32,595 nucleotides of DNA. Origin: Gammaproteobacteria bacterium (lineage in GTDB: Bacteria > Pseudomonadota > Gammaproteobacteria > Pseudomonadales > Litorivicinaceae). The position numbers and the translations under genes are program-made. The stretch covers positions 99,769 to 132,363 of the forward strand of contig JAHEDY010000001.1 in assembly GCA_024640985.1 (NCBI GenBank). Reading direction: 5' to 3'. This document shows, piece by piece, positions 1,466 to 19,780 of the stretch (the stretch's first letter is position 1; every line of letters starts with the position of its first letter). The notes beneath the pieces are model-generated. The model made no database searches. It had not been told where the DNA came from and was given only the letters and a program-made list of their open reading frames with translations.

Positions 1466-1840
1466 TTACAGTTCTTCTTGAATAAACGCTTGATAGTCAG
1501 CCTCATCAAGCAGGTCATCGAGTTCGGTTGGATCGGATAGTTGCATTTTGAAGAACCAGCCATCGTTTTCTGGGTCTTCATTGACCAGCTCTGGTCGGTC
1601 AGAGAGTTCCTCGTTGGACTCAATGATGGTTCCTGTGACCGGGGCGTAGATATCACTGGCAGCTTTCACAGATTCCACGACCGCGACTTCAGAGCCTTGG
1701 TCAGCAGAGGTATCGGCGTCTGGGAGTTCGACAAATACCACATCACCCAGTTGTTCTTGTGCGTAGAAGGTAATGCCAACGGTGGCTGTATCGCCTTCAA
1801 TACGGATCCATTCGTGTTCGCGCGTGTATTTAACAGTCAT
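1466..1840 (-). CDS. gcvH: Glycine cleavage system H protein
   Basis: Lipoyl-bearing shuttle protein of the glycine cleavage system, 124 aa, a normal length. It begins with the family signature [17 protein letters not shown]. The lipoylated lysine is K59 in [14 protein letters not shown]. The C-terminal half carries the expected acidic [22 protein letters not shown] segment. The ATG at 1840 has AAGGA about 7 nt upstream. The gene sits 18 nt after gcvT and 12 nt before gcvP on the same strand, a compact T-H-P operon. Lipoylation and the L protein (dihydrolipoamide dehydrogenase) must be supplied from elsewhere, since no lipA, lipB or lpd gene is in the window. Confidence 0.97.
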
Positions 1841-1858
1841 AAAAGGTCCTTAATCACT

Positions 1859-2968
1859 TCAAAGAGCGCGTCGATAGCGCTGTTGAACAAAAATTGGGTC
1901 ACAGACAGTGCAGGCCAATGCTTTGCCTCTGACCTCTGCAATTAATTCGGTCCCAAGTGTACTCAGTTTTTGTGTGACATAACCCATCGAAACCGGTCCA
2001 TTGTGGGTCGGTCCAAATCCACCGGATGTGATTTCGCCCACAACATCACCAGCGGCGTTTTTCAGAGTGGTATGGTCACGGAGTGGTGTCCGGCCGTCCG
2101 CAGGGGTCAGTCCAACGCGCTTTCTTGGAGCGCCGTCGCTGATTTGCTTGAGAATTGTCTCCGCACCTAAGAATCCGCCTTCGGTGCGTCGTCGCTTTTG
2201 GATCGACCACAAAAGATCCGCTTCAATCGGTGTGGTGTCCTGAGTCAGGTCGTTACCGTACAAACAGAGCCCTGTCTCAAGCCTTAATGAATTGCGCGCC
2301 CCCAAACCGACCCAGGTCGTTTCATTGAGATCGGTTAAGGCATCTGCGAAGTCTCGAGCGTGATCATTGGCGATTGAGACTTCGTAGCCGTCTTCGCCTG
2401 TGTAGCCACAGCACGATAATGTGATGTCACGACCTTTCCATGTGGTCTTCAATGACCGCATAAACAGCAGATTTTGAGCCTCAGGGATGATCCGTGACAG
2501 GGTGAGTCGGGCTTGTGGGCCCTGAATGGCGATCAGCGCATGATCATCGATATAAGTCATGCTGACTGCGCCAGGAAGATGCGCTTTGAAATGGGCCATA
2601 TCAGCATGTTTGCACGCTCCATTGACCACTAATCCCCAAATGTCGGTATCCCAGCGTGTCAGCATGAGATCGTCTAAGATTCCGCCAGTGTCGAGCGTTA
2701 ATTGCGAATAACGGATCTGGCCGGGCGTCATCTCTTGCAGTGCTGCAGGGACGAGTCGTTCGAGGGCTTCGGTGGAACCAGGGCCTTGGATCAGCAGTTG
2801 GCCCATGTGTGAAACATCAAACAAACCGACAGCGTCACGCGTGTGGAGATGCTCACCTTTGACGCCTAAAGGATACTGAATCGGCATCCGATAGCCGGCA
2901 AAGGGTGCAAACTTCGCACCTTGCTCATGATGAAAGGGTTCTAGAATTAACGAATGTAGGTCGGTCAT
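1859..2968 (-). CDS. gcvT: Aminomethyltransferase, T-protein of glycine cleavage
   Basis: THF-dependent aminomethyltransferase, 369 aa. It takes the aminomethyl group from GcvH and makes 5,10-methylene-THF and ammonia. Family landmarks are FAPFAGYRMPIQYPLGVKGE near the N-terminus, GLFDVSHMGQ, GYTGEDGYEVSI around the middle, and GLGARNSLRLETGLCLYGND in the C-terminal half. The start at 2968 (MTDLHSLILEP) is preceded by AAGGAG with a 5-nt spacer. An in-frame ATG at 2995 would add nine residues but has no SD and lies in the riboswitch 3' edge, so I reject it. First gene of gcvTHP. The start codon lies inside an 8-bp hairpin arm described separately, which suggests translational control. The SoxA subunit encoded at 6882-9800 carries a homologous folate domain. 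Confidence 0.96.
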   Translation of the reverse strand: MTDLHSLILEPFHHEQGAKFAPFAGYRMPIQYPLGVKGEHLHTRDAVGLFDVSHMGQLLIQGPGSTEALERLVPAALQEMTPGQIRYSQLTLDTGGILDDLMLTRWDTDIWGLVVNGACKHADMAHFKAHLPGAVSMTYIDDHALIAIQGPQARLTLSRIIPEAQNLLFMRSLKTTWKGRDITLSCCGYTGEDGYEVSIANDHARDFADALTDLNETTWVGLGARNSLRLETGLCLYGNDLTQDTTPIEADLLWSIQKRRRTEGGFLGAETILKQISDGAPRKRVGLTPADGRTPLRDHTTLKNAAGDVVGEITSGGFGPTHNGPVSMGYVTQKLSTLGTELIAEVRGKALACTVCDPIFVQQRYRRAL

Positions 2969-2999
2969 GCATGCTCCTTGCAGGCGTTGTCGCATGACC
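2963..2999 (-). promoter_or_regulatory. Start-codon-sequestering hairpin of gcvT (candidate riboswitch expression platform)
   Basis: On the minus strand GGTCATGC (2999-2992) is a perfect 8-bp complement of GCATGACC (2970-2963). The second arm contains the gcvT ATG, and the 21-nt loop holds the AAGGAG ribosome binding site. The first arm starts at the 3' edge of the second glycine aptamer and shares about one base with the likely P1 helix (ATGG). Pairing of this helix and full P1 would therefore compete slightly. This is what a translational expression platform would look like. The pairing is seen directly; the regulatory role is inferred. Confidence 0.55.
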
Positions 3000-3558: not shown

Positions 3559-3564
3559 ATGCCG

Positions 3565-3963
3565 ATGTCGATGACGCATTTGATCAATCAATTAAATCCT
3601 GAGGCTGTGGACTCGAATCCAGCATTCGGTAACTGTGTTTGGCAAACGTTACTTGGAAATGATGACGAACACTCTGCCTTATCGCTTGGGTATGCTACAT
3701 TTCCTCCCCACGGAACGTTGCATCGACACCAGCATGATGATGCGGAATTTTACTTCTGCACCAAAGGCTCTGGAATCGTCACGATTGACGGCAAAATCAT
3801 TCAATTGACGTCAGGCATGGCATTGTTTATCCCAGGTGGCGCGTTACACGAGGTGATTGCTGGCACTGATGGTCTTGAGTTTGTTTATGGGTTTTCGAAT
3901 CAGCCGTATTTTTCTCAAGTGAACTATCAGTTCGTCGCACAGGATACCCACTGTGTTGCTTAG
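3565..3963 (+). CDS. Small single-domain cupin, DddK-like (candidate DMSP lyase)
   Basis: A 132-aa cupin_2 protein. Motif 1 is HRHQHDDAEFYFCTKGSG and motif 2 is GMALFIPGGALH. Metal ligands are predicted at H55, H57, E61 and H95 (numbered from 3565). Tyr63 lies two residues after the Glu, and Tyr121 lies near the C-terminus. From memory, the DMSP lyase DddK of SAR11 (about 130 aa) uses His56, His58, Glu62, His96, Tyr64 and Tyr122. All six correspond at a constant offset of one, and stretches such as LSLG-A, AE-Y, T-G-GI and LEF also match. DddK cleaves DMSP to DMS and acrylate. Other small cupins share the metal motif, so the substrate is inference. The start at 3565 gives AAGG a spacing of 8 nt; the ATG at 3559 would leave only 2 nt. 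The gene is isolated and lies close to an onium-solute catabolism and uptake region. Confidence 0.75.
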   Translation: MSMTHLINQLNPEAVDSNPAFGNCVWQTLLGNDDEHSALSLGYATFPPHGTLHRHQHDDAEFYFCTKGSGIVTIDGKIIQLTSGMALFIPGGALHEVIAGTDGLEFVYGFSNQPYFSQVNYQFVAQDTHCVA

Positions 3964-4583
3964 TTGGTCCGTTCGCGCGCTCCTGTTTTCTGTATCGAGT
4001 GCGACCATAAAGCGAGGCATCTAGACCAGTATCGTAAACATTTGGGTCGGTGTGTTCCTGATTTTCAGAATTACCGCCGTGCAGAGGCTCACAAATAGCG
4101 GAAGTGAGAGAAGAAAAAATAGTGGTAAGGCCAAATTCGATCGAATCCCCGCCTCTTTATAACCCAAGCACGCCCTAGCGTGTATGACACCAAGCTGGAT
4201 ATGAAGGGGTGGTAGCTGAGTTTTAATTTCTTTCTAAAGCTTCCGGATAGCAATAAAAAGCTATGCATGTGCACCATATCGGGTGGCGCTCAGGGCCGAC
4301 GGATAGATTTCTAATGATTGAATTTTGGCGCGACGAATGAGCTAGATTCCGCAAAAAACCGCAGATACCGCGATACATGGCGCATCTAAAATCCACCGAT
4401 TCGTAATCGCTACTGCTCTCTAATGTGTAGGGTCGCAGAAGAGGTGGCGAAATCGGATGTTTTTGTCTTTCAGCGCCACCATAACGCGATTTTCGTTTAC
4501 TGATCCGACTTAACATGTCGTAACGTTACACATTCGTCGATATCTTACGGATTAGTGAACGAAACAATAAAGGGTGCTTGGCA
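3964..4583. other. 620-nt gene-poor stretch with decayed-looking sequence
   Basis: No convincing gene. The frame of the cupin stays open after its TAG for another 44 codons, to the TAG at 4096-4098, and reads like protein (ECDHKARHLDQYRKHLGR), possibly a relic. CGAATCCCCGCCTCT at 4142-4156 resembles the 3' end of a tRNA-Ser gene. There is a small CACGC/GCGTG hairpin (4169-4182), a GGTGGCG/CGCCACC inverted repeat (4443-4449/4474-4480) with a second copy of the left arm at 4282-4290, and the 10-bp palindrome GTAACGTTAC (4520-4529) just upstream of the next gene. Short minus-strand reading frames here show no recognisable protein features. Confidence 0.5.
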
Positions 4584-4952
4584 ATGATCACTGGTCGTGT
4601 CCTCGAGCATTGGAACACCGTAAGCATGACATGCCGTGCGTCCGTATTGCATCAGATCAATCCAATTCCATTGATTTCGATGCACCCTCATGACACCGAA
4701 TCTATGGATATCCGGAAGGATGATGCGGTATTAATTCGATCCAGGCAGGATGAGATAGCGACCCACGTGCGTGTGGACGAGGCGATTGCAGTGGGCAGTT
4801 TGTTTATCCATTTTGCCTTTTATGAATCGGCCGCAAATATGCTGACCTCGGATGCATTAGATTCAACGGGTAAAATCCTGGAGTTCAAGCACGCGCCCGA
4901 GTCAATTGAGAAAACAACTATACGACCTGTGCATTCTAGCTATTCAGCCTGA
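4584..4952 (+). CDS. Stand-alone molybdopterin dinucleotide-binding domain (probable formate dehydrogenase remnant)
   Basis: A 122-aa reading frame matching only the C-terminal Molydop_binding domain of formate dehydrogenase/nitrate reductase alpha subunits. It starts at the ITGRVLEHWNT motif, followed by ISMHPHDTESMDIRKDDAV, VGSLFIHFAFYESAANMLT and ALDSTGKILEFK. Family proteins are 700-950 aa with [4Fe-4S], catalytic Cys/Sec and Mo domains, and none of these is encoded upstream. AGGG lies about 9 nt before the ATG at 4584, so translation is possible; TTG at 4578 is an alternative start. I read it as the surviving 3' end of a lost fdh gene. It could instead be a small domain protein. A formate dehydrogenase would suit a pathway that produces C1-THF and formate, so loss of the rest beside soxBDAG is plausible. 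Confidence 0.6.
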   Translation: MITGRVLEHWNTVSMTCRASVLHQINPIPLISMHPHDTESMDIRKDDAVLIRSRQDEIATHVRVDEAIAVGSLFIHFAFYESAANMLTSDALDSTGKILEFKHAPESIEKTTIRPVHSSYSA

Positions 4953-4970
4953 TTTTCCTGTTTCATCAGA

Positions 4971-5011
4971 TTAAAAAGAGCTTCGCTGTCATCAAGCCAG
5001 GTTCAGCGAAG
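4971..5011 (-). terminator. Terminator-like hairpin, best on the minus strand
   Basis: CTTCGCTG (4981-4988) and CAGCGAAG (5004-5011) form a perfect 8-bp stem with a 15-nt loop. Read leftward, the stem is followed by CTCTTTTTAA, a U-run typical of a Rho-independent terminator. Read rightward it is followed by ACAATTTTG, a weaker tail. On the plus strand it could end the fragment at 4584-4952. On the minus strand there is no gene upstream for it to serve. Confidence 0.5.
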
Positions 5012-5145
5012 ACAATTTTGATCCGGTCGCCCCGGTTACTGCTGCCTTGGGAATGAACTGCTTGATGTCGAGTGGAGGTCACCCTCTTTAAATCGAACAA
5101 ATCGAAATGGACTAATCAATGTTGAGCGTTGCTTAGTTACTAGTT

Positions 5146-5214
5146 TATCCGCGACCAATTTACCAACATCGATCATAAGGAATGTGGTGGATTGATTTAG
5201 TGCCATCGCGGATA
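5146..5214. repeat. Long imperfect inverted repeat upstream of soxB
   Basis: TATCCGCGA (5146-5154) is perfectly repeated as TCGCGGATA (5206-5214). Inside it, a CAATTTACCAACAT stretch can pair imperfectly with ATGTGGTGGATTG, so the whole 69 nt may fold as one long hairpin. It is 145 nt upstream of the soxB start. It could be a pair of regulator half-sites, a leader RNA structure or part of a small RNA. I see the symmetry only. Confidence 0.45.
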
Positions 5215-5358
5215 CATGTGGGCGTTGATTTTAGACAGAGAATAGTCAGCCTGCTTGACGCTGATATGTCTTTTCTGGCCAAGTTTTTATCTTTTTTGAC
5301 AACTTGATAAATAGCGAGGATGGTTATGCTTATCGTTAATATACGATGAGGATAATGC

Positions 5359-6609
5359 ATGGATTTTTCAGGTTGGCGGGTGCTGAGAGAGGGTCTTCGT
5401 GGGCATACTGGTTGGGCGCCTCTGTGGCGCGCTGCAACCCCAAAAAAACACTATGATGTGCTCATTGTCGGTGGCGGCGGGCATGGGTTAGCGACAGCCT
5501 ATTATCTGGCCAAATATCACGGGTTGACTAACATTGCTGTGCTCGAAAAAAACTGGGTCGGAGGCGGGAATGTCGGTCGTAATACGACGATCATCCGTTC
5601 TAATTATTTGTTGGATGGAAATCAACCATTCTATGAGTTGTCACTAAGACTTTGGGAAGGGATTGAGCAAGAGCTGAATTTCAATGCCATGGTGAGTCAG
5701 CGAGGAGTCTTGAACCTGTTTCATTCAGACGCGCAGCGCGATGCATTTCGACGGCGAGGTAATGCAATGCGGATGCATGGCACTGATGCTGAATGGCTGA
5801 ATGCCAAAGCGGTCCGTCAGATGGCTCCCTTCCTAAACTACGACAACGCGCGCTTTCCAATCCACGGCGGACTATTACAGAGGCGTGGTGGTACTGTTCG
5901 TCATGATGCTGTGGCTTGGGGATATGCTCGTGCAGCAAGCGCATTGGGAGTCGATATCATCGAACGGTGCGAAGTCCAAGGATTTGATGTTACTAATGGA
6001 CAGGTTCAAGCAGTTGAGACGAGCCGGGGGCGTATTGAGGCCGACCGAATTGGTGTCGCTGTCGCGGGGTACTCGAGCGAAGTCATGCGTCACGCCAATG
6101 TGCGCCTACCAATCGAATCACACGTGTTACAGGCTTTCGTAACTGAGGGTTTAAAACCTCTTATTCCGGGTGTGATCACATACGGCGCTGGACATTTCTA
6201 CATCAGCCAATCTGACAAAGGAGGCTTAGTATTTGGTGGCGATCTCGATGGTTATAACAGTTATGCAAGTCGAGGAAATTTACCTGTGGTCGAAGATGTT
6301 TGTGAGGGCGGTATGAGTATCATGCCGATGCTTGGGCGGGCTCGCTTGCTCAGATCCTGGGGAGGGGTCGTGGATATGTCGATGGATGGCTCGCCGATCA
6401 TCGATCGAACACAGGTGGGCGGTTTGTATTTCAATGGTGGATGGTGTTATGGAGGTTTCAAAGCGACTCCAGCAAGCGGCTGGGTCTTCGCGCATCTTTT
6501 AGCGAGAGAGTCTTCCCATCCAACTGCCAGCGCATATCGATTTGATCGATTTGCGGCAGGCGCCATGATTGACGAAAAGGGGCAGGGTTCGACGCCGAAC
6601 CTGCATTGA
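5359..6609 (+). CDS. soxB: Heterotetrameric sarcosine oxidase, beta subunit
   Basis: Flavoprotein subunit of the N-methyl amino acid (sarcosine) oxidase complex, 416 aa, the usual length. It oxidises the N-methyl amine. The FAD-binding Rossmann motif VGGGGHG lies at residues 37-43, with E63 ending the second strand, after the typical N-terminal block WRVLREGLRGHTGW. The segment GGTVRHDAVAWGYARA (about residues 178-192) is where the family binds FMN covalently through a histidine. H182 is my candidate, though I am unsure of the exact family numbering. The C-terminal part has GGVVDMSMDGSPIID and FNGGWCYGGFKATPASGWV. It is the first gene of a nine-gene operon, with GAGG 7 nt before the ATG and soxD 4 nt downstream. 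The substrate may be sarcosine or another N-methyl amino acid. Confidence 0.95.
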   Translation: MDFSGWRVLREGLRGHTGWAPLWRAATPKKHYDVLIVGGGGHGLATAYYLAKYHGLTNIAVLEKNWVGGGNVGRNTTIIRSNYLLDGNQPFYELSLRLWEGIEQELNFNAMVSQRGVLNLFHSDAQRDAFRRRGNAMRMHGTDAEWLNAKAVRQMAPFLNYDNARFPIHGGLLQRRGGTVRHDAVAWGYARAASALGVDIIERCEVQGFDVTNGQVQAVETSRGRIEADRIGVAVAGYSSEVMRHANVRLPIESHVLQAFVTEGLKPLIPGVITYGAGHFYISQSDKGGLVFGGDLDGYNSYASRGNLPVVEDVCEGGMSIMPMLGRARLLRSWGGVVDMSMDGSPIIDRTQVGGLYFNGGWCYGGFKATPASGWVFAHLLARESSHPTASAYRFDRFAAGAMIDEKGQGSTPNLH

Positions 6610-6613
6610 ACTA

Positions 6614-6889
6614 ATGCGGATACCTCACCCTATTCTTGGCCTACGAGATCAATCAGAGTTCGTCTACCTTGGGGATGCTTGCTTGCTTGAGCGGCCTGAT
6701 GGAATGCAGGCCGATGCGTTGCAGAAAATGACGGAATACGCGTACCAGCGCGATAACTGTAGAGGCCTGCATCGAGAGCTTTGGTTTCATGAACAGGGAG
6801 ATCGTGCGTGGCTAGTCGTCACGCGCAACACTGTTACGCATGAAATAGTAAAAGTCGAATTTGCAAACGAGGTTGCCAGTCATGACTAA
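6614..6889 (+). CDS. soxD: Sarcosine oxidase, delta subunit, lacking the zinc-binding cysteines
   Basis: Small structural subunit of the SoxBDAG complex, 91 aa. Family features are present: GxRD-SEFVYLGDA near residues 9-22, YAYQRDN then HRELWFH (53-59), and AWLVVTRNTVTHEI (65-78). Typical delta subunits bind Zn through a CPxCGxR motif and an HxxGC pair (Cys6, Cys9, His59, Cys63 in the Corynebacterium enzyme, as I recall). Here the first motif reads HPILGLRD (H5, L8) and the second HEQGDRAW (H59, D63), so all three cysteines are gone and only His59 remains. The reading frame is intact and well placed. The ATG at 6614 was preferred over upstream in-frame codons inside soxB because it follows the soxB stop by 4 nt and gives the family N-terminus. 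It overlaps soxA by 8 nt. Confidence 0.9.
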   Translation: MRIPHPILGLRDQSEFVYLGDACLLERPDGMQADALQKMTEYAYQRDNCRGLHRELWFHEQGDRAWLVVTRNTVTHEIVKVEFANEVASHD

Positions 6890-9800
6890 TCGGTTTGCCG
6901 ATGCGCCAGGCATCGATGTGGCAGAGCCCGTCCATTTTCAATTTGATAACCGGACCTATGTGGGATACCTCGGTGATACATTGGCTTCCGCGCTTCTTGC
7001 TAACAATGTACGCCTGATCGGAAGGTCATTTAAGTATCACCGGCCGCGCGGGGTATTCTCAGATGGCTCTGATGAGCCCAATGCGTTAGTAACTGTATTG
7101 CGCGAAGGGCACCCTGAGCCGAATACGCGAGCGACTGAAATTGAACTCTATGATGGCCTAAAGGCATGGTCGCAAAATGCGTGGCCAAGTTTGCGATTTG
7201 ACCTGCTGGCAGTTAACGATTGGTTGTCGAAGTTTCTGACCGCCGGTTTTTATTATAAAACGTTTATGTGGCCTGCCAGATTTTGGGAGGCGGTCTATGA
7301 GCCGATGATTCGGAGAGCGGCCGGGATCGGTCGGCTGTCTGATACTCCAGACCCGTCCGTCTATGATAAAGGCTACCTGCATCCAGATGTATTGGTGATT
7401 GGGGCCGGTTTGGCAGGTTTGGTATGTTCACTGCAACTGGCAAAAGGCGGGCAGAGGGTGCTCCTTGTGGATGAGCATGCCAGATTTGGTGGCCGCTTGC
7501 TTTTTTCCGCGAATGCTAAGCTTCGTCCATGGCTTGATGCTCTGGTCGAAGAGGTATTAAAGCATCCAAATATTCAGCGGTTGATTCGAACAGTAGTTTT
7601 TGGATCCTATGATCATGGGGTTTATGGCGCTATCACGCGCAATACCGAACATCAGGCTGCTGATCCTGGAGTGTTGCCGAAACAAACCTATTGGACGATC
7701 AGCGCCGGACACACGATCTTAGCTACCGGTGCACTGACGCGCAGCATCGCATTTCCGAATAATGATCGGCCAGGCATCATGACCATGAGCGCAATTGAGG
7801 CTTACGCGGTCTATTACGGTGCTTTGAAAGGTTCATCGGTTGCACTGTTTATCTCACACGAGGAGGGGCGACGTACTGCGCTGCGTTTGCATGCGCTCGG
7901 TGTAAATATCAAAGCGGTGATTGATACGCGTTCCGAAGCTTTGCCTTTGACTGAATTTCCATACTTCACAGGTTCTCAAGTGGTCAACACCTCGGGACGA
8001 CTCGGATTAACGGGGATCCAAGTGAGATCATCGGATGGCACGTTTCAATGGATCAATGTAGATTATTTAGGGATTTCAGGCGGCTATAACCCCACGATTC
8101 AGCTGACCTGCCATCAGGGAGCCAAACCCAAGTGGGATTTGTCGATTGAGGCATTTCGTGCTGCAGATAATCGACCCGACGATCAGCGGTGCATCGGTGG
8201 AGCCGACGGCGCATTTGGGTTAGGTGACTGCTGGCAAAGCGCAATCCATGCCGCCGAAGCAATCTTGGGTCAGTCACTGCATTTAGTTAACCCGTTTAAT
8301 GAATCTGAGCCACTTGCTCTTCAGTCGGAGTATGTGATTTACGGTCATGGACCGACCTTTGTGGATATGCAAAATGATGTCACGATCAAAGACATCCAGC
8401 TCAGTCATCAAGAGGGGATGTCGAGTGTTGAGCACGTGAAGCGGTACACAACACTTGGTATGGCAACGGATCAGGGGAAGCACTCCAATGTCCTTGGACT
8501 GGCCGCCCTGGCTCAGGCAACCGGACAATCTATTGCTGAGACAGGGACGACATTGTCGAGACCGCCATACACAGGAGTCTCAATTGGTGCGTTGGCTGGC
8601 CAATACCGTGACCTCGACTTCAAGCCAACGCGACTCACCCCGTCGCATCAGGCTGCGACAGCTCGTCACGCGAGTTTTGTGGAGGTCGGGAATTGGTTGC
8701 GCGCGCAATGGTTTCCTTTGCCACATGAGAAGTATTGGCGTGAGACAGTCGACCGTGAAGTCATCGCAGTTCGTCGCAATGTTGGTGTGTGTGATGTGAC
8801 AACGCTTGGTAAAATTGATGTTCAAGGTGAAGATGCCGCTGCTTTTTTAAATCACGTATACGCCAATGGATTCCTTAAATTACCCGTCGGCAAAACACGT
8901 TATGGCTTGATGCTGCGCGAGGATGGGATTGTTATGGACGATGGGACCGCGGCGCGTCTGAGTGAAACTCAGTTCGTTGTCACTACCACTACTGCCAATG
9001 CGGTTCCAGTTTATCGTCATATGGAGTATGTCAGGCAGTGTCTTTGTCCCAAAATGGATGTGCACCTGATTTCAACCACCGAGGCTTGGGCTCAATTTGC
9101 GGTTGCTGGACCTCGGTCACGAGAGTTGATTGCCCGACTCGTCGCATGTGACGTATCCAATGAGGTGTTTCCCTTCATGGCATGCGCCGAAACCCATTTG
9201 AGAAATGGTATACGAGCACGACTCTTTCGGATTTCTTTTTCTGGCGAATTGGCATTTGAAATTGCCGTGCCAACACGTGTTGGAAACGCGTTCTTTGAAT
9301 ATCTTCTTGAGATCGGAAAAGATCTGGAGGTGACACCTTATGGCACGGAAGCCTTGAGTGTTTTGCGTATTGAAAAGGGCCACGCGGCAGGTGCGGAACT
9401 GAATGGACAAACCACCGCCAAGCAGCTCGGCCTTGAGCGTATTGTTAGTCAAACCAAAGATAGCATTGGCCGTGTCTTAGCTGGGCGTGATGCCCTTCAA
9501 AACGACACCGCTTGCCTAGTCGGATTGCAACCGGTCACTTCATCTGATCCATTAGTTGCAGGGGCTCATTTAGTCGGCCTTGGAAAGCCGATCGATGCGG
9601 CGCATGATCTCGGCTATGTGACAAGCGTTGCCTACTCGCCACATTGTCAATCTATGATCGGATTGGCCTATCTCAAAGAGGGTGCAAGCTACCGCGGTAA
9701 AAGGATTCGTGCGGTGAGTTTGTTAGATCACCAAGATATCGAGGTCGACGTAGTTAGCCCACATTTTGTTGATCCAGACGGGGAGCGTTTGCGTGTTTGA
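6882..9800 (+). CDS. soxA: Heterotetrameric sarcosine oxidase, alpha subunit
   Basis: Large subunit, 972 aa, full length. It binds NAD and folate and converts the methyl-derived iminium to 5,10-methylene-THF. The order is: an N-terminal ferredoxin-like fold without cluster cysteines (YLGDTLASALLANNVRLIGR, then HRPRGVFSDGSDEPNALV); a dinucleotide-binding domain with VIGAGLAGLVCSLQLAKGG around residue 170 and FGGRLL; then a C-terminal GcvT-like folate domain from about 620 to 970 (GVCDVTTLGKIDVQGEDA, REDGIVMDDGTAARL, EKGHAAGAELNGQTTAKQL). The ATG at 6882 overlaps soxD by 8 nt. An in-frame codon at 6861 would add seven residues inside soxD and was rejected. It overlaps soxG by 8 nt, consistent with coupled translation of complex subunits. 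Confidence 0.96.
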   Translation: MTNRFADAPGIDVAEPVHFQFDNRTYVGYLGDTLASALLANNVRLIGRSFKYHRPRGVFSDGSDEPNALVTVLREGHPEPNTRATEIELYDGLKAWSQNAWPSLRFDLLAVNDWLSKFLTAGFYYKTFMWPARFWEAVYEPMIRRAAGIGRLSDTPDPSVYDKGYLHPDVLVIGAGLAGLVCSLQLAKGGQRVLLVDEHARFGGRLLFSANAKLRPWLDALVEEVLKHPNIQRLIRTVVFGSYDHGVYGAITRNTEHQAADPGVLPKQTYWTISAGHTILATGALTRSIAFPNNDRPGIMTMSAIEAYAVYYGALKGSSVALFISHEEGRRTALRLHALGVNIKAVIDTRSEALPLTEFPYFTGSQVVNTSGRLGLTGIQVRSSDGTFQWINVDYLGISGGYNPTIQLTCHQGAKPKWDLSIEAFRAADNRPDDQRCIGGADGAFGLGDCWQSAIHAAEAILGQSLHLVNPFNESEPLALQSEYVIYGHGPTFVDMQNDVTIKDIQLSHQEGMSSVEHVKRYTTLGMATDQGKHSNVLGLAALAQATGQSIAETGTTLSRPPYTGVSIGALAGQYRDLDFKPTRLTPSHQAATARHASFVEVGNWLRAQWFPLPHEKYWRETVDREVIAVRRNVGVCDVTTLGKIDVQGEDAAAFLNHVYANGFLKLPVGKTRYGLMLREDGIVMDDGTAARLSETQFVVTTTTANAVPVYRHMEYVRQCLCPKMDVHLISTTEAWAQFAVAGPRSRELIARLVACDVSNEVFPFMACAETHLRNGIRARLFRISFSGELAFEIAVPTRVGNAFFEYLLEIGKDLEVTPYGTEALSVLRIEKGHAAGAELNGQTTAKQLGLERIVSQTKDSIGRVLAGRDALQNDTACLVGLQPVTSSDPLVAGAHLVGLGKPIDAAHDLGYVTSVAYSPHCQSMIGLAYLKEGASYRGKRIRAVSLLDHQDIEVDVVSPHFVDPDGERLRV

Positions 9801-10368
9801 TCTTCTTCCCTCGCCGGCGACTACCGAAGCGTTGGGCGAATTTGGGGCCTATAAACTCAGTGAAGTCATGCAAAACGCATTGATTTCATTGGCTGTTCCA
9901 AAAGATCGCGTTGAGGGCGCGCGCCGATTTGTTCGGGAGCAATATGGCCTTGAGTTACCCGAGTCGGAGTCAATATGTGTTAATCACGATCAGAGCTACG
10001 CGGCATTTTGGATAGCGCGCAGCCAATGGATGCTCGAGCGACCGGAGTTACATGATCCTAATTGGGCAGTAACCCTTGCCGCTGAGAACATTGGTTATGT
10101 CACAGAGCAAACAGGTGCCTGGGTGCGACTTGATCTGGAGGGACCTATGCTGTCAACGCTCTTTCAACGGCTTGCCAATGTGCCAAGCGAGCGATTGGTT
10201 GAGCCGACGGCAATGAGAACAGCCATTCATCACCTGGGCGTCTTCGTGGTCTGTCGCAGCTCGTGCATCTCAATTTATGGACCACGATCAAGCGCAGATT
10301 CACTAGTAAGATCGGTGAAGTTTGCAATACATACAATTAATGGTTTGGAGAATAAATATGAGGTTTGA
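9793..10368 (+). CDS. soxG: Sarcosine oxidase, gamma subunit
   Basis: Gamma subunit of the SoxBDAG complex, 191 aa, within the usual range. The sequence is weakly conserved in the family, but position and the segments PLHDPNWAVT-like LHDPNWAVTLAAEN, GAWVRLDLEGPML and the C-terminal PRSSADSLVRSVKFAI fit. It resembles a GcvT fold half. I chose the GTG at 9793: GGGAG lies 8 nt upstream and the overlap with soxA is 8 nt. The TTG at 9766 has no SD. It overlaps the next gene by 11 nt. The combination of four subunits in the order B-D-A-G is the standard arrangement. Confidence 0.88.
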   Translation: MFDLLPSPATTEALGEFGAYKLSEVMQNALISLAVPKDRVEGARRFVREQYGLELPESESICVNHDQSYAAFWIARSQWMLERPELHDPNWAVTLAAENIGYVTEQTGAWVRLDLEGPMLSTLFQRLANVPSERLVEPTAMRTAIHHLGVFVVCRSSCISIYGPRSSADSLVRSVKFAIHTINGLENKYEV

Positions 10369-11803
10369 TAACTGGATCGCCGGTGATTGGGCCGGATCGG
10401 AAGATCGTATAGAGAATATCAACCCATCAGACACGCGTGATGTCATTGGGCGCTACGCGCAGGCCAATTTTGAAGATCTCGAGCGCGCCGTGATCGCAGC
10501 TATGAAGGCTCAAAAACAATGGCAGGCGACCCCTCTTGAGGTTCGTCAAACCGTGCTTGATCGCATTGGGCGTGCCTTGATGGAAAACGCAGATTCACTT
10601 GGCGAATTATTAAGCCGGGAAGAGGGTAAGACACGACCTGAGGGCCGTGGCGAGGTATACCGAGCTGGGCAGTTTTTTACCTACTACGCAGCAGAAGTAT
10701 TGCGGCAAATCGGTGATACAGCTGATTCGGTGAGGCCGGGTATTGAGATTGATGTGCGTCGTGAGCCAGTGGGTGTGGTTGGAGTCATTAGCCCATGGAA
10801 TTTTCCGATGGCGACAGCGGCTTGGAAGATCGCTCCTGCGTTGGCCTTCGGTAATGCAGTAATCTGGAAGCCTGCAAACTTAACCCCAGCGTCAGCCGTT
10901 GCTTTGACAGAGATCATTGCGCAACAGGATATCCCAACAGGACTGTTCAACTTGATGATGGGTTCGGGCAGCGGCATTGGTGACGCACTGACGGCCCACC
11001 CGCATGTCAATGCCATCAGTTTCACGGGGTCGGTCGATGTAGGGCGACAAGTTGCCACACGAGCCGCGTCCCATTTCGCCAAGGTGCAATTGGAGATGGG
11101 ATCAAAAAATGCGCTTCTTGTCATGGATGATGCCGATATTGCTCTTGCCGTTCAAACTGCTGCCAATGGAGCCTTTGGGAGCACTGGCCAAAAGTGCACA
11201 GCGTCAAGCCGGTTAGTGGTACATGACAAGATACTTGATTTATTTATTGATCGACTGCAAAAGCATATGTCGAGCATGGTGGTTGGCCACGCACTTGATG
11301 CATCGAGTCAAATAGGGCCGGTTGCCTCATTGACGCAGCTGAATGAAAACATACGGTATCTTGAGCTGGGCCGTGAAGAAAACGCTGAACTGTTGTGTGG
11401 TGGCGAGTTGCTTGAGCGCGAGACTCCTGGGTTCTTCATGCAGCCGGCATTGTTTGTAAAGACTCACAACGCGATGACAATCAATCGGGAGGAAATGTTT
11501 GCCCCGATCGCCAGTGTGATTTCTGTCAGCTCTTATGAGGAAGGACTGGCGACTGTGAATGATACGGCATTTGGATTGACGTCAGGAATCATGACGCGCT
11601 CATTGGCGCGAGCTAACCATTTCAGACGCCATGCGCGAACTGGGTGCGTCATGGTGAATCTACCCACCGCAGGCACTGATTATCACGTACCGTTCGGTGG
11701 CCGTGGTGAGTCGTCTTATGGATCTCGAGAGCAGGGGCAGTATGCGGTTGAATTTTATACGAATGTGAAAACTTCCTACATCGCACAGGGTGAGCCGGAA
11801 TAA
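10358..11803 (+). CDS. NAD(P)-dependent aldehyde dehydrogenase, 2-oxoglutarate-semialdehyde-dehydrogenase-like
   Basis: ALDH superfamily enzyme, 481 aa. Catalytic residues are visible: N148 (SPWNFP), K171 (WKPAN), E246 (QLEMGSKNALLV) and nucleophile C280 (GQKCTASSR). The EMGSKNA and STGQKCTASSR motifs resemble alpha-ketoglutarate semialdehyde dehydrogenases of hydroxyproline and sugar-acid pathways more than betaine aldehyde dehydrogenases. The real substrate is not determined by sequence. It could oxidise formaldehyde or semialdehydes released by the oxidase complex. The ATG at 10358 has GGAG with 7-nt spacing and overlaps soxG by 11 nt. The stop TAA overlaps the next ATG (TAATG), so it is firmly in the operon. 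Confidence 0.9.
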   Translation: MRFDNWIAGDWAGSEDRIENINPSDTRDVIGRYAQANFEDLERAVIAAMKAQKQWQATPLEVRQTVLDRIGRALMENADSLGELLSREEGKTRPEGRGEVYRAGQFFTYYAAEVLRQIGDTADSVRPGIEIDVRREPVGVVGVISPWNFPMATAAWKIAPALAFGNAVIWKPANLTPASAVALTEIIAQQDIPTGLFNLMMGSGSGIGDALTAHPHVNAISFTGSVDVGRQVATRAASHFAKVQLEMGSKNALLVMDDADIALAVQTAANGAFGSTGQKCTASSRLVVHDKILDLFIDRLQKHMSSMVVGHALDASSQIGPVASLTQLNENIRYLELGREENAELLCGGELLERETPGFFMQPALFVKTHNAMTINREEMFAPIASVISVSSYEEGLATVNDTAFGLTSGIMTRSLARANHFRRHARTGCVMVNLPTAGTDYHVPFGGRGESSYGSREQGQYAVEFYTNVKTSYIAQGEPE

Positions 11804-12771
11804 TGCGTATTGATGGACTGCAGTATTGTAATTGGTCAGGTGAGATCTTCCAGCAGATGGCGGAAGGCCAGGTTGATTGTGTGCATGTAACGATTGCATA
11901 TCACGAAAACTTTCGAGAGATGGTCGCCGTGATTGAGTCATGGAATCGGATGTTTGAGCATTTTTCCGATCGCATAGTTCATGCTTTTACAGCGGATGAT
12001 GTGCGCACGGCTAAGACCGACGGCAAAACGGCGATCATATTTGGTTTTCAAAACCCAAGCCCGATTGAAGACGACATTGGTCTGGTTGAGGTCGTTCACC
12101 AATTGGGCGTGAGATTCATGCAGTTGTCTTATAACAATCAATCGTTGTTGGCGACTGGATGCTATGAATCCTCAGATCCAGGAATTACGCGGATGGGGCA
12201 GGAGGTGATTCGCGAGATGAATCGTGTTGGCTTAGTTATTGATATGTCGCACTCGGCTGAGCGGTCCACTTTAGAAGCAATTGAGATCTCTGAGCGGCCG
12301 ATCGCGATCTCGCACGCCAACCCGGCTTTTTGGCATCCAGCAAAACGAAACAAGAGTCGCGAGGTTTTGCTGGCCTTGGGCGAATCGGGAGGCATGCTGG
12401 GATTTTCGATGTATCCTCATCACTTGAAAGATGGCGGTAGCTGTTCACTTGAGAGTTTTTGTCAAATGATTGCTGACACAGCCGACCTGATGGGCCTGGA
12501 CCACATTGGACTTGGGTCTGATCTCTGTCAGAACCAGCCAGATACAGTTGTCGAGTGGATGCGGTCTGGGCGCTGGACGAAATCAGTCGATTTTGGTGAA
12601 GGCACCAAAGATAAACCCGGGTTTCCTAAGCAGCCAGATTGGTTTGTAGATAATCGCTATTTTGGTCATCTCGAACAAGGGCTTCAGAACCATGGGTTCC
12701 AGGATGCTGAGATCAAGCAGATCATGGGTGGTAATTGGCTGCGATTTTTTGATGAAAGTTTCGGGACATAA
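11803..12771 (+). CDS. M19 (renal dipeptidase) family protein with degenerate metal site
   Basis: 322-aa TIM-barrel amidohydrolase of the membrane dipeptidase family. Retained residues include H150 (IDMSH), H171 (ISHAN) and GLGSD around residue 240. The N-terminal HxD zinc pair is replaced by DGLQYCNW (residues 4-11), and the bridging Glu position reads Gln83 (FGFQNPSPIED). A classic binuclear zinc site therefore cannot form. From memory, the homologue next to the dimethylglycine demethylase genes of Pseudomonas aeruginosa (PA5396) shares this DGL and FGFQN pattern, so it looks like a subfamily trait. No signal peptide is seen, so it is probably cytoplasmic. It starts at the ATG overlapping the ALDH stop by one base. 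A role in N-methyl amine catabolism is inferred from context; the reaction is unknown. Confidence 0.85.
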   Translation: MRIDGLQYCNWSGEIFQQMAEGQVDCVHVTIAYHENFREMVAVIESWNRMFEHFSDRIVHAFTADDVRTAKTDGKTAIIFGFQNPSPIEDDIGLVEVVHQLGVRFMQLSYNNQSLLATGCYESSDPGITRMGQEVIREMNRVGLVIDMSHSAERSTLEAIEISERPIAISHANPAFWHPAKRNKSREVLLALGESGGMLGFSMYPHHLKDGGSCSLESFCQMIADTADLMGLDHIGLGSDLCQNQPDTVVEWMRSGRWTKSVDFGEGTKDKPGFPKQPDWFVDNRYFGHLEQGLQNHGFQDAEIKQIMGGNWLRFFDESFGT

Positions 12772-12782
12772 ATGGTGGTGTC

Positions 12783-14441
12783 ATGATTGCGATGCGTGAG
12801 CCTGATGAAGTTATGCGACTCGATCGTCTCGGATCGTTGCACGCATCTCGTTTATCGTTTTTGCGCATTTTACTACGACGGATTCAAGAGGAACGCTGGT
12901 CTTTCCAACGAACAGTCTTCGATATTGGCGCTGACTGCACTGGAGATGCGGTCTATACCGCTCACTCCCCCCATCGATCGTACAGCTTGATTGTCTTTGC
13001 TCACCAACTCAATCCAGAGCACCGAACGGATCGGGTGATTGCGAATGCTTGGGATGCAACTTTTACCCTATTTGACGGGATTCCAAGCGCTGAAGATATC
13101 GATCGATTACGGTCCAATGTGCCACTCCAAGAAGCGGGACGCTTAAGTGCATCGGAGTTGACGATGTCGCGTGCCAATAAATCAGTAAGGTTATGGGATG
13201 CCGTCGTTGCTGCGTTGGCAGCTGGTACGCAGCCACCAGTTGAGGAGATTGATGATACGGGTTATCTCATGCGTACCACGGCCGTCTATGGTTCTGGAAA
13301 ATTCGGTGCGTGCGACCGAGAAATGATTCTTGATCGTCCAGAACTCCAGCCAGCGTTCCAAGCCGAGATGCTCACCGTACTGATGATTCGACAATTCGCC
13401 CGTGACTGGTTGGAGCATGAAGCTTATCTCAAAGCCCCAGATTCAGCGGTTCGGTTGGATGAGTCATTAGCTACCCGGCTTGGCATTGGTAATTCAACAG
13501 GTCTTGGGATGGCCCCATTCCTGATTAATCATCCTGTCTTGATCGATCATTGGGTGAGAGCGCGAGAGACCGCTATCGCGCGTGTTAAAGCTATCATTAA
13601 GGTGGCTCCTTGTGATCGTGAACTAGTAATGCACCTACTAAGACGTGCGCGTGCTGACTTTGCCCTCTGGCAAAGCGCCGATGAAGCACAGAGTGCGACT
13701 ATAGAGGAGCTAATACGAGATGTTGATACCCTGATCGGCTGGATTGAAGTGCACCCATTACACGCGACATCATGGGCGGATGCCATGCGTTTTGCGAAGA
13801 CAGAACTGTGTCTGGAAGCCCAAGAGATACTCGCATCTGTGATGCTTGAACCCTACTCCAATCTGGTTGACGAGCTTGCCAGTGGAATGGCTGTGGCTGA
13901 GTGCGAGTTAATGCCCGTGAATGGTTCGTTGACTGTCGGGGAGTCGATCGCACAGATTGATGACAGTTATGATTGGCTAGATGACATCCAGTGGAAGGAC
14001 GCACATGCAACGGCCTTATTGTGGTATGTCTCTGAAGAAAAATTGGAGCCACGGCTTGGGTTTCGTGCCGAAGACGCATTTGAAGCATATGAGCAACCAC
14101 TGGCGCCAGCGCGGGATATCACGGCCTACCGTCAAGCGCTCAGTGAATGGCCATCTGATGCGACGCTAGCGGAATTTCTCATGCGTCAGCCTGAACACCG
14201 CTTAGCTTCAATGCGCGTTCAGTGGATAGCATCCAATCGATATGGTGAGATTCGAGGAAATACGATTGACGCAGGACTGCGTCCAATTGATTTGCTGCGC
14301 TGTAAGCTGTCATTTTTTGGTGCGACACGGTTCGATCCACGCTCAGATCGATGGCTTCGGATCACACTGTATCGTCACGCTCCCTATCTCGACCAAATTG
14401 TCGAGGCTGATCCATTTTGGATTTACGGACCGGTGCATTGA
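12783..14441 (+). CDS. Conserved-looking protein of unknown function, 552 aa
   Basis: I do not recognise a named domain. The protein is soluble, with no signal peptide or membrane segment. Distinct blocks are YGSGKFGACDREM (about 173-185), FQAEMLTVLMIRQFARDW (about 195-212), LGIGNSTGLGMAPFLINHP (about 237-255) and a C-terminal FFGATRFDPRSDRWLRI. The glycine-rich GIGNSTGLGM block looks like a ligand-binding or catalytic loop, but it is not a standard P-loop. I have the impression that similar proteins occur beside DUF3726 and Ldh_2 genes in other proteobacteria; this is unverified. The ATG at 12783 follows a GGTGG SD after 3-4 nt; ATG at 12792 is an alternative. The stop overlaps the next start by 4 nt, suggesting the two products act together. 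Confidence 0.85.
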   Translation: MIAMREPDEVMRLDRLGSLHASRLSFLRILLRRIQEERWSFQRTVFDIGADCTGDAVYTAHSPHRSYSLIVFAHQLNPEHRTDRVIANAWDATFTLFDGIPSAEDIDRLRSNVPLQEAGRLSASELTMSRANKSVRLWDAVVAALAAGTQPPVEEIDDTGYLMRTTAVYGSGKFGACDREMILDRPELQPAFQAEMLTVLMIRQFARDWLEHEAYLKAPDSAVRLDESLATRLGIGNSTGLGMAPFLINHPVLIDHWVRARETAIARVKAIIKVAPCDRELVMHLLRRARADFALWQSADEAQSATIEELIRDVDTLIGWIEVHPLHATSWADAMRFAKTELCLEAQEILASVMLEPYSNLVDELASGMAVAECELMPVNGSLTVGESIAQIDDSYDWLDDIQWKDAHATALLWYVSEEKLEPRLGFRAEDAFEAYEQPLAPARDITAYRQALSEWPSDATLAEFLMRQPEHRLASMRVQWIASNRYGEIRGNTIDAGLRPIDLLRCKLSFFGATRFDPRSDRWLRITLYRHAPYLDQIVEADPFWIYGPVH

Positions 14442-15055
14442 AGTGGTCGGGTAACGAGTTACGGGCTCAGGTGACCAAGGCAGCTCGAGGTCTTGGGTAT
14501 GATTGGGGGCGTGCAAAATATCTCGGGGAGTCAGTACTCCGAGCTGAGCGAAATGGACTCAGCGCACTCACAAGTTTTTTGCAGTTGACCGACACTCTCG
14601 ACACCGGACCCTCTCGACTACTGCATTCAACCCTGCTTAAGGGAGATATCGTCACGGTTGACGTGGTCGACCTGGGGATCGCGCTGATCGATTGCCTCCC
14701 TGGACTGGATTTCCAAACGCCGGTGGCGTTTGATGTGGTCGGATTCCCGTTATTCTTGGGGATTCTGTGCTACGGGCTGACAGGGACAGACCGAGCATTA
14801 CAGATTGAGATTGATGATATTGAGTGTGTCGTTCAGGCTGAGCGAATCCTCGTTGGTCGAGAGTCCCCGTTTCAAGGTTTGTGCTGGTTGCGTTCTTGTC
14901 CGCGTCGATTTGATGATTGGCGTTTGGTTAGTCGCTTTGAGGTTACAGATACAGATGCTGAAACTTTGGATCACCTGGCATCGCGCGTGTATGCACCGGC
15001 GACCGAAGCGTCGCGTTTGGTGGGTGCAGGGGCTGGTTTAAATGATAATGATTAA
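14438..15055 (+). CDS. DUF3726-like protein
   Basis: 205 aa, soluble. The N-terminus KWSGNELRAQVTKAARGLGY and the C-terminal YAPATEASRLVGAGAGLNDN match my memory of DUF3726, a family of about 200 aa with no known function. I chose TTG at 14438 because it begins exactly at the conserved N-terminus and overlaps the previous stop as TTGA. The TTG at 14417 would add seven residues inside the preceding gene. It is followed by the Ldh_2 gene after 11 nt. Position between the 552-aa unknown and the dehydrogenase makes it part of a three-gene module; it may be an accessory or binding subunit. Confidence 0.75.
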   Translation: MKWSGNELRAQVTKAARGLGYDWGRAKYLGESVLRAERNGLSALTSFLQLTDTLDTGPSRLLHSTLLKGDIVTVDVVDLGIALIDCLPGLDFQTPVAFDVVGFPLFLGILCYGLTGTDRALQIEIDDIECVVQAERILVGRESPFQGLCWLRSCPRRFDDWRLVSRFEVTDTDAETLDHLASRVYAPATEASRLVGAGAGLNDND

Positions 15056-15066
15056 GTGAGGATGGT

Positions 15067-16071
15067 ATGCAACGGGTTAGTTTAGATCGCGTCGAGTCGC
15101 TGGCTTTATCGGCGCTGGTCAATAGTGGGACTTCGCCAGAAAATGCCCTAGCACTGGCTAAGGCGACCCGGATCACAGAGGCGCAAGGGATCGCTAGCCA
15201 TGGACTAGCCTACCTTCCAATATATTGCCAGCATGTCCAGTGTGGGAAAGTGCTTGGAGATGCCAAACCTGAAGTTACTGCCCCGCGATCTGCGGCCTTT
15301 AGGGTCGATGCCGGCAATGGTTTTGCACATCCGGCCATCGCGATGGGCTTTGAATATCTCATTCCAGCGGCCCGCGAGTATGGGATAGCTGTGTTGAATA
15401 TTGACCGTTCGTATAATTGTGGCGTGCTTGGCGTGCATACAGGAGCATTGGCTGACGCGGGTTTGATCGGTTTTGGGACCACCAACGCGCCGGCTTCAGT
15501 TGCACCGAGTGGTGGGAATCGACCAGTAGTTGGAACTAATCCCTGGTCGTTTGCGTTGCCCGGTGACACCGGTTTTTTAGTTGATCAGAGCGCTAGTGTG
15601 ATTGCCAAAAGCGAGATCATGAAGGCCAAGCGTGAGTCACGAGCGATCCCCGATACATGGGCTTTTGATCCAAATGGAAAACCTACGACAGACCCAGAGA
15701 TCGCATTGACAGGATCGATGGCGCCGTCAGGTGGTTACAAAGGCGTCAATCAGGCGTTGATGGTTGAATTACTCGCTGCCGCATTAAGCGGAGCCAATCT
15801 AGGGATTCAAGCCAGTCCATTTTCTGGAACAGTCGGTGGCCCGCCTGGAACGGGCCAATGTTTTATCGCGATTGATCCATCTATCAGTGCGGGCTTTTCT
15901 AGTCAGGCCGAGCTTCTTTGTGCCGCAATCATCGACCAAGGGGCTCGGCTACCCGGAGTCAATCGTCGGGATCAAATGCTGCACGCCGAGGCCGAGGGTG
16001 TGCTGGTCAATCCAGACATCTTGGAGACTGTTAAAGGCCTTGCCGGCGACGACAAAACGGAGCTTAGCTGA
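15067..16071 (+). CDS. Ldh_2 (malate/L-lactate/sulfolactate) family NAD(P)-dependent dehydrogenase
   Basis: 334 aa, a normal length for this family, which includes malate/lactate dehydrogenases, sulfolactate dehydrogenase (ComC/SlcC), ureidoglycolate dehydrogenase and delta1-pyrroline-2-carboxylate/piperideine-2-carboxylate reductases (DpkA). The catalytic His is H45 in GIASHGLAYL. Other landmarks are GGNRPVVGTNPWSFALP, LVDQSASVIAKSEIMKAKR, MAPSGGYKGVNQALMVELL and the C-terminal RLPGVNRRDQM. The substrate cannot be told from sequence. In this operon a 2-oxo acid or cyclic imine reductase acting on a demethylated amino acid product is attractive. The ATG at 15067 has GAGG 7 nt upstream. It is the last gene of the soxB operon, followed by 483 nt without a gene. 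Confidence 0.9.
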   Translation: MQRVSLDRVESLALSALVNSGTSPENALALAKATRITEAQGIASHGLAYLPIYCQHVQCGKVLGDAKPEVTAPRSAAFRVDAGNGFAHPAIAMGFEYLIPAAREYGIAVLNIDRSYNCGVLGVHTGALADAGLIGFGTTNAPASVAPSGGNRPVVGTNPWSFALPGDTGFLVDQSASVIAKSEIMKAKRESRAIPDTWAFDPNGKPTTDPEIALTGSMAPSGGYKGVNQALMVELLAAALSGANLGIQASPFSGTVGGPPGTGQCFIAIDPSISAGFSSQAELLCAAIIDQGARLPGVNRRDQMLHAEAEGVLVNPDILETVKGLAGDDKTELS

Positions 16072-16554
16072 GATTCATGCTGGCTGTTCGACAGCGAGTC
16101 GGTCGGGCCTTTCTTTAGCATTTTTCTATCACCTTAGCCTTAGCTGATCTCACGTGGTTGTATTTAAACATCTGGAGATAGACGGGTTCGGTGCTTCCGC
16201 GAGTCCCGGTAAAGAGAGGAATCGAGGTCGATTATTCCTAATTACGCCATCTTGAAGCTCCAATAAATCAAGACTGACGGAATTTTCGCTGAAAAGCGTG
16301 TAATGGCAACTCGATCGGCTTCTTTGGATGAACGGTTGTCGAACACTGCTAACACAAAAGGGCCCGGTCCATAGCAAGGATGTTAGTGCGTAAATTGTTT
16401 ATCCGTACCTTTTTTGGAGCAACAACTAAAGATTAGGTAGTTGGGAGCGGATCTGAAAATTGAATTCCTGATAGCTAACGGTTGTTTTTATTAGCCATAT
16501 GGTCATAGTAACGATGGTATCTTGGAAAGTAACAAAAAATTGGAGAGTAATAAG
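16072..16554 (+). promoter_or_regulatory. 483-nt region upstream of the ABC importer; promoter and operator candidates
   Basis: No gene is supported. A strong local dyad lies at 16217-16239: AGG, then AATCGA-GG-TCGATT, then CCT after a 3-nt bulge. It could be an operator or an RNA hairpin. TTGTTT near 16483 with ATAGTA about 17 nt downstream is a weak promoter candidate for the importer genes. GGAG at 16542-16545 is the RBS. I found no clear terminator for the preceding operon; the sequence after 16071 has only short GC stems. Confidence 0.35.
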
Positions 16555-17532: not shown

Positions 17533-17554
17533 CGGGCGCTTTACCCGCGTTACC

Positions 17555-17577
17555 TGCCCAGAAGATTATGCTGGGCA
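17555..17577 (+). other. Intercistronic hairpin between binding protein and permease genes
   Basis: TGCCCAG (17555-17561) and CTGGGCA (17571-17577) form a perfect 7-bp stem with a 9-nt loop in the 81-nt gap. It is followed by AGTTTGACTTT, not a clean U-run. Such hairpins after binding-protein genes often protect or partly terminate the message, giving more binding protein than permease. That role here is inferred. Confidence 0.5.
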
Positions 17578-17613
17578 AGTTTGACTTTAAAATAAAAACA
17601 TTCGGGATGGATC

Positions 17614-19727: not shown

Positions 19728-19760
19728 GTTGATTGGCTGATTATTCACGTTGACTGCCAT

Positions 19761-19780
19761 AGGCTCACATCAAGCCTTTT
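19761..19780 (+). terminator. Weak Rho-independent terminator after the importer operon
   Basis: AGGCT (19761-19765) and AGCCT (19773-19777) form a 5-bp stem with a 7-nt loop, followed by a TTTT run to 19780. It lies 34 nt after the ATPase stop. The stem is short, so termination may be partial. Confidence 0.4.

Follow-up and report, generated by a model that had tools for sequence, protein, structure and literature searches.

The closest described systems for the protein considered here are two small DMSP lyases, DddK and DddW. In DddK, mutants and structures have assigned metal binding to His56, His58, Glu62 and His96, the role of base to Tyr64 and contact with the substrate carboxylate to Tyr122 (PMC10686828, PMC12582016), while Tyr21, Trp26, Phe108, Trp110 and Phe117 are its cation-pi residues (PMC10686828). 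The residues published for DddW of Ruegeria pomeroyi DSS-3 are H81, H83, E87, Y89 and H121, and a second DddW, from MED193, is named in the same paper (PMC4437653). A polar-ocean survey that applied a profile cut-off of 1E-30 assigned 100% of DddW to Rhodobacterales and 99% of DddK to Pelagibacterales (PMC8520302); a further study sets 40% identity as its rule for DddK and mentions a fungal dddW (PMC13310141). A DddW-like protein with 54% identity to R. pomeroyi DddW is reported not to cluster with ratified DddW (PMC9327192). Members of the Litorivicinaceae rise in algal blooms (PMC7992965). For OM252, which GTDB places with Litoricola, DMSP demethylation genes are described as missing from all genomes and DMSP lyases as predicted in three, of a type not named in the part of the article examined (PMC8269220), so that annotation of DMSP lyases in Litorivicinaceae may already exist. 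Among the matches listed, titles and opening abstract lines describe no DddW/DddK-type enzyme in Litoricola or OM252, and what is probably new here, judged by sequence comparison, is a DddW/DddK-family member in a gammaproteobacterium.

The window (the whole stretch of DNA that was analysed, 32,595 nucleotides of a Litorivicinaceae contig) holds a small cupin gene between gcvTH and glyA. The features used below are the following.

1466-2995, minus strand: gcvH (1466-1840) and gcvT (1859-2995), pointing away from the cupin gene; conserved left side of the locus within the genus; gcvT passes the cut-off of GcvT model PRK13579
3551-3556, plus strand: Shine-Dalgarno-like AGAAGG, read from the sequence
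3565-3963, plus strand: small DddW/DddK-family cupin, probable DMSP lyase, 132 aa (alignments, model, fold match, purifying selection)
16522-19727, plus strand: Opu/Dmp-type ABC importer with binding protein (16522-17532), permease (17614-18633) and ATPase (18630-19727)
20237-21490, plus strand: glyA, right flank of the locus; about 16.3 kb from the cupin gene here

The open reading frame at 3559-3963 on the plus strand is present and encodes 134 amino acids from the ATG at 3559 or 132 from the ATG at 3565. The second ATG is more likely to be the start because AGAAGG is well spaced for it, lying by eye 8 nt before ATG 3565 and 2 nt before ATG 3559. Of the 28 codons that differ from the closest relative (L011), 25 differ synonymously (dS 0.36, dN 0.01). 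This corresponds to a dN/dS of about 0.03 and thus to purifying selection, from which it follows that the gene is maintained. NCBIfam gave two weak matches for the window cupin, both far below cut-off, and no match at 1e-5 for the DddW row of R. pomeroyi (L060). No plasmid-borne relatives were found in PLSDB at E 1e-8.

Counted from the 132-aa start, H55, H57, E61 and H95 of the window cupin align with the metal ligands H56, H58, E62 and H96 of DddK, and Y63 and Y121 align with Y64 and Y122. The six residues named beforehand were therefore correct, and the SLG-A, AE-Y, T-G-GI and LEF motifs are all found in the alignment as well. The spacing, which had been called identical to that of DddK, agrees in the sense that the six residues align, but does so via compensating gaps, with DddK positions 21, 26, 108 and 117 corresponding to 21, 26, 106 and 116 in the window cupin. 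The positions of the sulfonium cage are also complete (F21, W26, F106, Y108, F116), with two differences, as DddK Y21 is replaced by F21 and DddK W110 by Y108. The window cupin and DddK of Pelagibacter ubique HTCC1062 (PDB 6A53, 5TFZ) therefore have in common all six catalytic residues as well as a cage of five aromatics, at 37% identity over 105 positions. The DddW row from R. pomeroyi SZCCDBG043 (L060), read from a 152-aa start, carries H81, H83, E87, Y89 and H121 at the places of window H55, H57, E61, Y63 and H95, and Tyr 146 at that of Y121; DddW differs in that its stretch ahead of the first His is about 26 residues longer.

A phmmer search of the window cupin against all PDB chains returned four DddK sequences (E 3.7e-13 to 7e-12) and, as the next protein, another cupin at E 3.9e-4, so the likeness to DddK exceeds chance. 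An AlphaFold2 model built on a 46-row alignment reached a mean pLDDT of 91.1. With this model, Foldseek ranked DddK best (E 7.7e-11; next protein 1.6e-7), and residues 4 to 124 could be superposed on DddK 6A55 with a Z score of 19.1 and 1.6 A over 120 residues, the next fold reaching Z 15.2. The predicted model thus contains the DddK fold including its C-terminal segment. Membership of DddL or DddQ was considered and rejected, since the Pfam DMSP_lyase model (PF16867) scores the window cupin at 22.4 bits, below the curated cut-off of 27; none of the 22 genomes of the genus has a protein over that cut-off. What is common to these lyases and the window cupin is the cupin metal site and a weak profile match, and the second tyrosine of DddQ, Tyr120, precedes the first His (PMC4437653), unlike that of the window cupin.

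A scan of 84,980 GTDB species genomes confirmed 122 relatives, and the family rows used here are the best 80 of these. Scan candidates were drawn from two patterns, one with H-x-H...E-x-Y and one with the last His, which favours rows having these residues. All six catalytic residues occur in 80/80 family rows (best 80 of 122) and in 0/27 other gammaproteobacterial cupins, although for the five residues other than Y121 the 80/80 arises partly by construction, as the patterns demanded them. Y121 and the cage residues are in neither pattern, and the C-terminal Tyr is likewise found in 80/80 family rows (best 80 of 122) and in 0/27 other cupins. The latter set consists of 29 cupins among the matches listed as loci, minus two that were read in the wrong frame (L095, L103). 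The preliminary description had held both tyrosines to be more specific to DMSP lyases; this is borne out for the C-terminal one but not for that of E-x-Y, which is present in 25 of the 27 other cupins.

For tree building, 71 rows and about 130 columns were used in a careful analysis that left out 23 of the 27 outgroup rows and 15 of the 80 family rows (13 near-identical Rhodobacteraceae, the near-duplicate L088 and the long-branched L080). Here the 4 retained outgroup rows are separated from the family with full support (100/100; bootstrap/SH-aLRT throughout). These data bear on the reading that the window cupin is an unremarkable metal-binding cupin with a superficial likeness to DMSP lyases. 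The His/Glu set is indeed common to cupins, E-x-Y is widespread as described above, and in a quick tree built on the complete set of 27 outgroup rows, two of them (L096, L119) fall on the family's side at a branch support of 39. Against this, the C-terminal Tyr and the full cage are absent from all 27 other cupins and the careful tree separates the family cleanly, so that we regard such a superficial likeness as exceedingly improbable.

The cage separates groups within the family better than the six catalytic residues do. With groups drawn after the tree was seen, the full five-aromatic cage was counted in 4/4 Litoricola, 4/4 SAR11, 29/32 DddW-clade and 14/23 other Rhodobacteraceae or sister rows, versus 0/19 Rhizobium, Gemmobacter and mixed rows and 0/27 outgroup cupins. 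Of the 40 rows from Litoricola, SAR11 and the DddW clade, 39 have an aromatic residue at position 21, and all 19 Rhizobium, Gemmobacter and mixed rows have Arg, Lys or His there. If this rule holds, position 21 would be a simple and testable predictor of which family members cleave DMSP. The six catalytic residues themselves also occur in rows from Rhizobium, Geodermatophilus and one cyanobacterium (best 80 of 122), among which we know of no DMSP lyase. One soil Rhizobium cupin (L077, 8001-8390) matches DddK at E 8.8e-23, more strongly than the window cupin does, and seven Rhizobium-type rows keep all six catalytic residues with His or Arg at position 21.

This wide reach, and hence the possibility that the six residues do not mark DMSP users, favours a second reading, in which a DddW/DddK-family cupin has kept its metal site and tyrosines and acts on another substrate, for instance a different onium acid of the betaine type or a product of the neighbouring glycine/sarcosine pathway. 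Two rows that stand near Litoricola in the tree, in the same subclade (L059, L061), carry Asp at position 21 and do not have the full cage, which would fit another substrate. The window cupin, however, keeps the full cage, whereas the 19 Rhizobium, Gemmobacter and mixed rows carry a basic residue at position 21. We consider another substrate unlikely, and take up the evidence from the locus below.

Within the best 80 of 122 relatives, the window cupin has three same-genus relatives at 66-98% identity, followed outside the genus mostly by Rhodobacteraceae cupins at 40-52%. Its identity to the SAR11 DddK rows is 36-38% locally in the scan and 32-37% in pairwise comparison. Between single representatives, the window cupin and the R. 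pomeroyi DddW row are 40% identical, the window cupin and DddK 37%, and DddW and DddK 34%; since the last value is lower than that of the window cupin to either, it falls within the span of DddW and DddK. In the careful tree the four Litoricola rows form a clade (100/100) inside a 34-row clade (96/94) that includes the DddW rows from R. pomeroyi and MED193 (L060, L044), while SAR11 DddK lies on a separate branch. The window cupin itself is outside the 21-row DddW subclade. Holding the Litoricola rows together with those 21 DddW rows cost 13.6 log units (AU test, p 0.053; about 130 columns). We know of no tested protein in the immediate subclade of the window cupin.

A true DddK ortholog exchanged with SAR11, rather than a protein from the DddW side, would account for DddK being the best solved-structure match, a comparison in which a search with the DddW row found no DddW structure. 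A clade of Litoricola with DddK is also not rejected by the AU test (p 0.113), at a cost of 16 log-likelihood units and on a weak tree of about 130 columns. This lower likelihood, the 34-row clade with DddW and the identity of up to 52% to Rhodobacteraceae proteins, versus 32-38% to DddK rows, nevertheless make such an exchange very unlikely. The window cupin is accordingly placed, on the basis of these comparisons, as a gammaproteobacterial member of the DddW/DddK family that is probably nearer to DddW. Of the earlier proposal that it extends DddK-type lyases beyond SAR11, lyase function is supported, but the label 'DddK' is too narrow. Phylogeny also did not place it in a clade of non-DMSP cupins, an outcome that would have spoken against the proposal. 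The inner branches joining Litoricola to the alphaproteobacterial rows are weaker (84/50 to 98/76), and transfer is for this reason something we infer: the gene may have come from Alphaproteobacteria.

The genomic surroundings differ from those of DddW. Minus-strand genes of a single cluster are found immediately upstream in 32 of the 80 family loci, and in three loci (L060, L019, L053) these upstream genes are LysR regulators by Pfam, as described for DddW. The window cupin has no divergent LysR gene; its divergent neighbour is gcvT, and it adjoins gcvTH with glyA as the far flank.

To see how this locus varies, we compared 22 genomes of the genus, in 19 of which the gcvTH-glyA interval is visible from at least one side (all but G004, G010 and G021). 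The cupin is present at E 1e-5 in four genomes, in each case in this interval: the window genome (G000), G002, G013 (seen from the glyA side only) and G015. Nine of the 22 have a DmdA-like gene there instead (G016 seen from the glyA side only), and six have neither gene (G001, G003, G006, G007, G014, G020). Genomes with both genes were absent; the probability of this by chance is 0.098 given 4 and 9 of 22, which is not significant, and mutual exclusion was therefore rejected as statistical proof. In the window genome (completeness 98.85%), the DmdA-like matches were GcvT and a SoxA domain only. For gcvT in one genome (L142, G015) and glyA in two (L135, L149; G006, G020), tblastn gave two overlapping pieces, reflecting an assembly error or a frameshift.

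The nine interval proteins score 277-385 bits with the DmdA model, versus a curated cut-off of 410 and 84-120 bits for GcvT, and are thus near DmdA yet below its cut-off. Their genes stand with ORFs resembling acyl-CoA ligases and methylenetetrahydrofolate reductases in the three loci checked gene by gene (L134, L138, L148). The ligase-like ORF of L134 is over the cut-off of the acyl-CoA synthetase model PRK08162 and far below that of the 3-(methylthio)propionyl-CoA ligase model, and the reductase-like ORF is over the Pfam cut-off in L138 and below the NCBIfam cut-off in L134. The interval of L138 also has PpoB2 and DUF1326 genes. As judged from these matches, the gene sets suit DMSP demethylation, which is no proof of it. 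Set beside the OM252 study, as far as its text was examined, the DmdA-like genes of the present genomes either were missed by that study or belong to other species (PMC8269220).

In the three other cupin carriers (G002, G013, G015), the cupin gene is directly upstream of glyA and co-directional with it, at a distance of 26 to 53 bp by the listed ORFs. This arrangement, together with the divergent gcvTH, again favours a substrate other than DMSP, and in the window the neighbourhood of gcvTH, glyA and an island with sarcosine oxidase genes would also suit betaine or glycine metabolism. The DMSP-demethylase-like gene at the same locus in other species, on the other hand, argues for DMSP. Returning to the lyase reading, we tentatively propose, while holding it somewhat short of an even chance, that the gcvTH-glyA interval serves as a DMSP locus with exchangeable content, with a DmdA-like operon in some lineages and an Alphaproteobacteria-derived DddW/DddK-family lyase in others, to which the window lineage added a 16-kb importer island. 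If this is true, replacing the gene at this one site would decide whether DMSP takes the methanethiol route or yields DMS, and DddW and DddK would form a single enzyme family that extends beyond what surveys using 1E-30 or 40% identity detect.

The island was delimited by comparison with G002: the likeness of the window DNA to this genome breaks off at 3985, 22 bases past the stop codon of the cupin gene, and is found again from 20308, within glyA. The insert of roughly 16.3 kb between the cupin gene and glyA contains a fragment resembling formate dehydrogenase, genes for sarcosine oxidase, an aldehyde dehydrogenase and an M19 peptidase, Ldh_2, the importer and further unnamed genes. The interval is visible in 18 other genomes of the genus, and none of them has the gene set of window 3986-20236. 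The fragment, at 4578-4952, is a 124-aa molybdopterin dinucleotide-binding piece (C-terminus of formate dehydrogenase/nitrate reductase) with no large subunit nearby in the ORF list, and looks like a gene remnant at the island edge. A 552-aa ORF at 12783-14441, which has no Pfam or NCBIfam match at 0.01, overlaps a DUF3726 gene (14417-15055) that is followed by Ldh_2; the ORF and the DUF3726 gene are an unnamed pair in what is likely a pathway for onium compounds.

The importer lies, as had been noted, 12.6 kb from the cupin gene, its binding protein starting at 16522. This binding protein matches 7YLE at E 5.3e-102 with 156 of 305 positions identical (51%); 7YLE is RnDmpX of Roseovarius nubinhibens with DMSP bound (PMC10030565). 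Seven of eight DmpX pocket residues are identical, and Ala153 is replaced by Gly. The same pocket is present in 17 other binding proteins of the genus that are 32-40% identical to that of the window, except for T64P in two. The suggestion that the importer could carry DMSP is thus favoured by the likeness to DmpX, but a pocket common to the genus does not discriminate, and it was rejected as proof of DMSP specificity. Two of the cupin carriers (G013, G015) have no binding-protein match at E 1e-10.

Together, the catalytic set and the cage, both complete, the match to the DddK fold, the genomic locus and the importer support the earlier proposal of DMSP lyase function, and we consider it likely that the window cupin is a DMSP/DMSOP lyase of the DddW/DddK family. 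By homology with DddK and DddW, H55, H57, E61 and H95 would hold a divalent metal, to which the substrate carboxylate would bind together with Y121, while the sulfonium would sit in the cage formed by F21, W26, F106, Y108 and F116. Deprotonated Y63 would then take the C-alpha proton and the C-beta-S bond would break. Such a metal-dependent beta-elimination would convert DMSP to acrylate and dimethyl sulfide, and DMSOP would probably be cleaved likewise to acrylate and DMSO. The DmpX-type importer could supply substrate in the cell, and the removal of acryloyl-CoA could be aided by an AcuI/YhdH-type reductase whose gene lies elsewhere in the genome. The AcuI/YhdH model is over cut-off in 19 of the 22 genomes, including G000; this permits removal of acryloyl-CoA, yet being near-universal in the genus it is not specific. 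If the enzyme works, Litorivicinaceae would be an added gammaproteobacterial source of DMS.

Two further arrangements were seen among the loci. A second DmdA-like gene is present in G016 and G017 (region 9469-13543 of L143, where it scores 361 bits, and 7810-8817 of L146). In L143 the genes after it are OsmC-like, an enoyl-CoA hydratase and an acyl-CoA synthetase, which makes this region a candidate DMSP demethylation operon away from gcvT. In two SAR11 loci (L087, 2269-9680; L084, 7926-11485), dddK adjoins an Opu-type transporter, and in L087 it lies 20 bases after an FMO-like monooxygenase gene.
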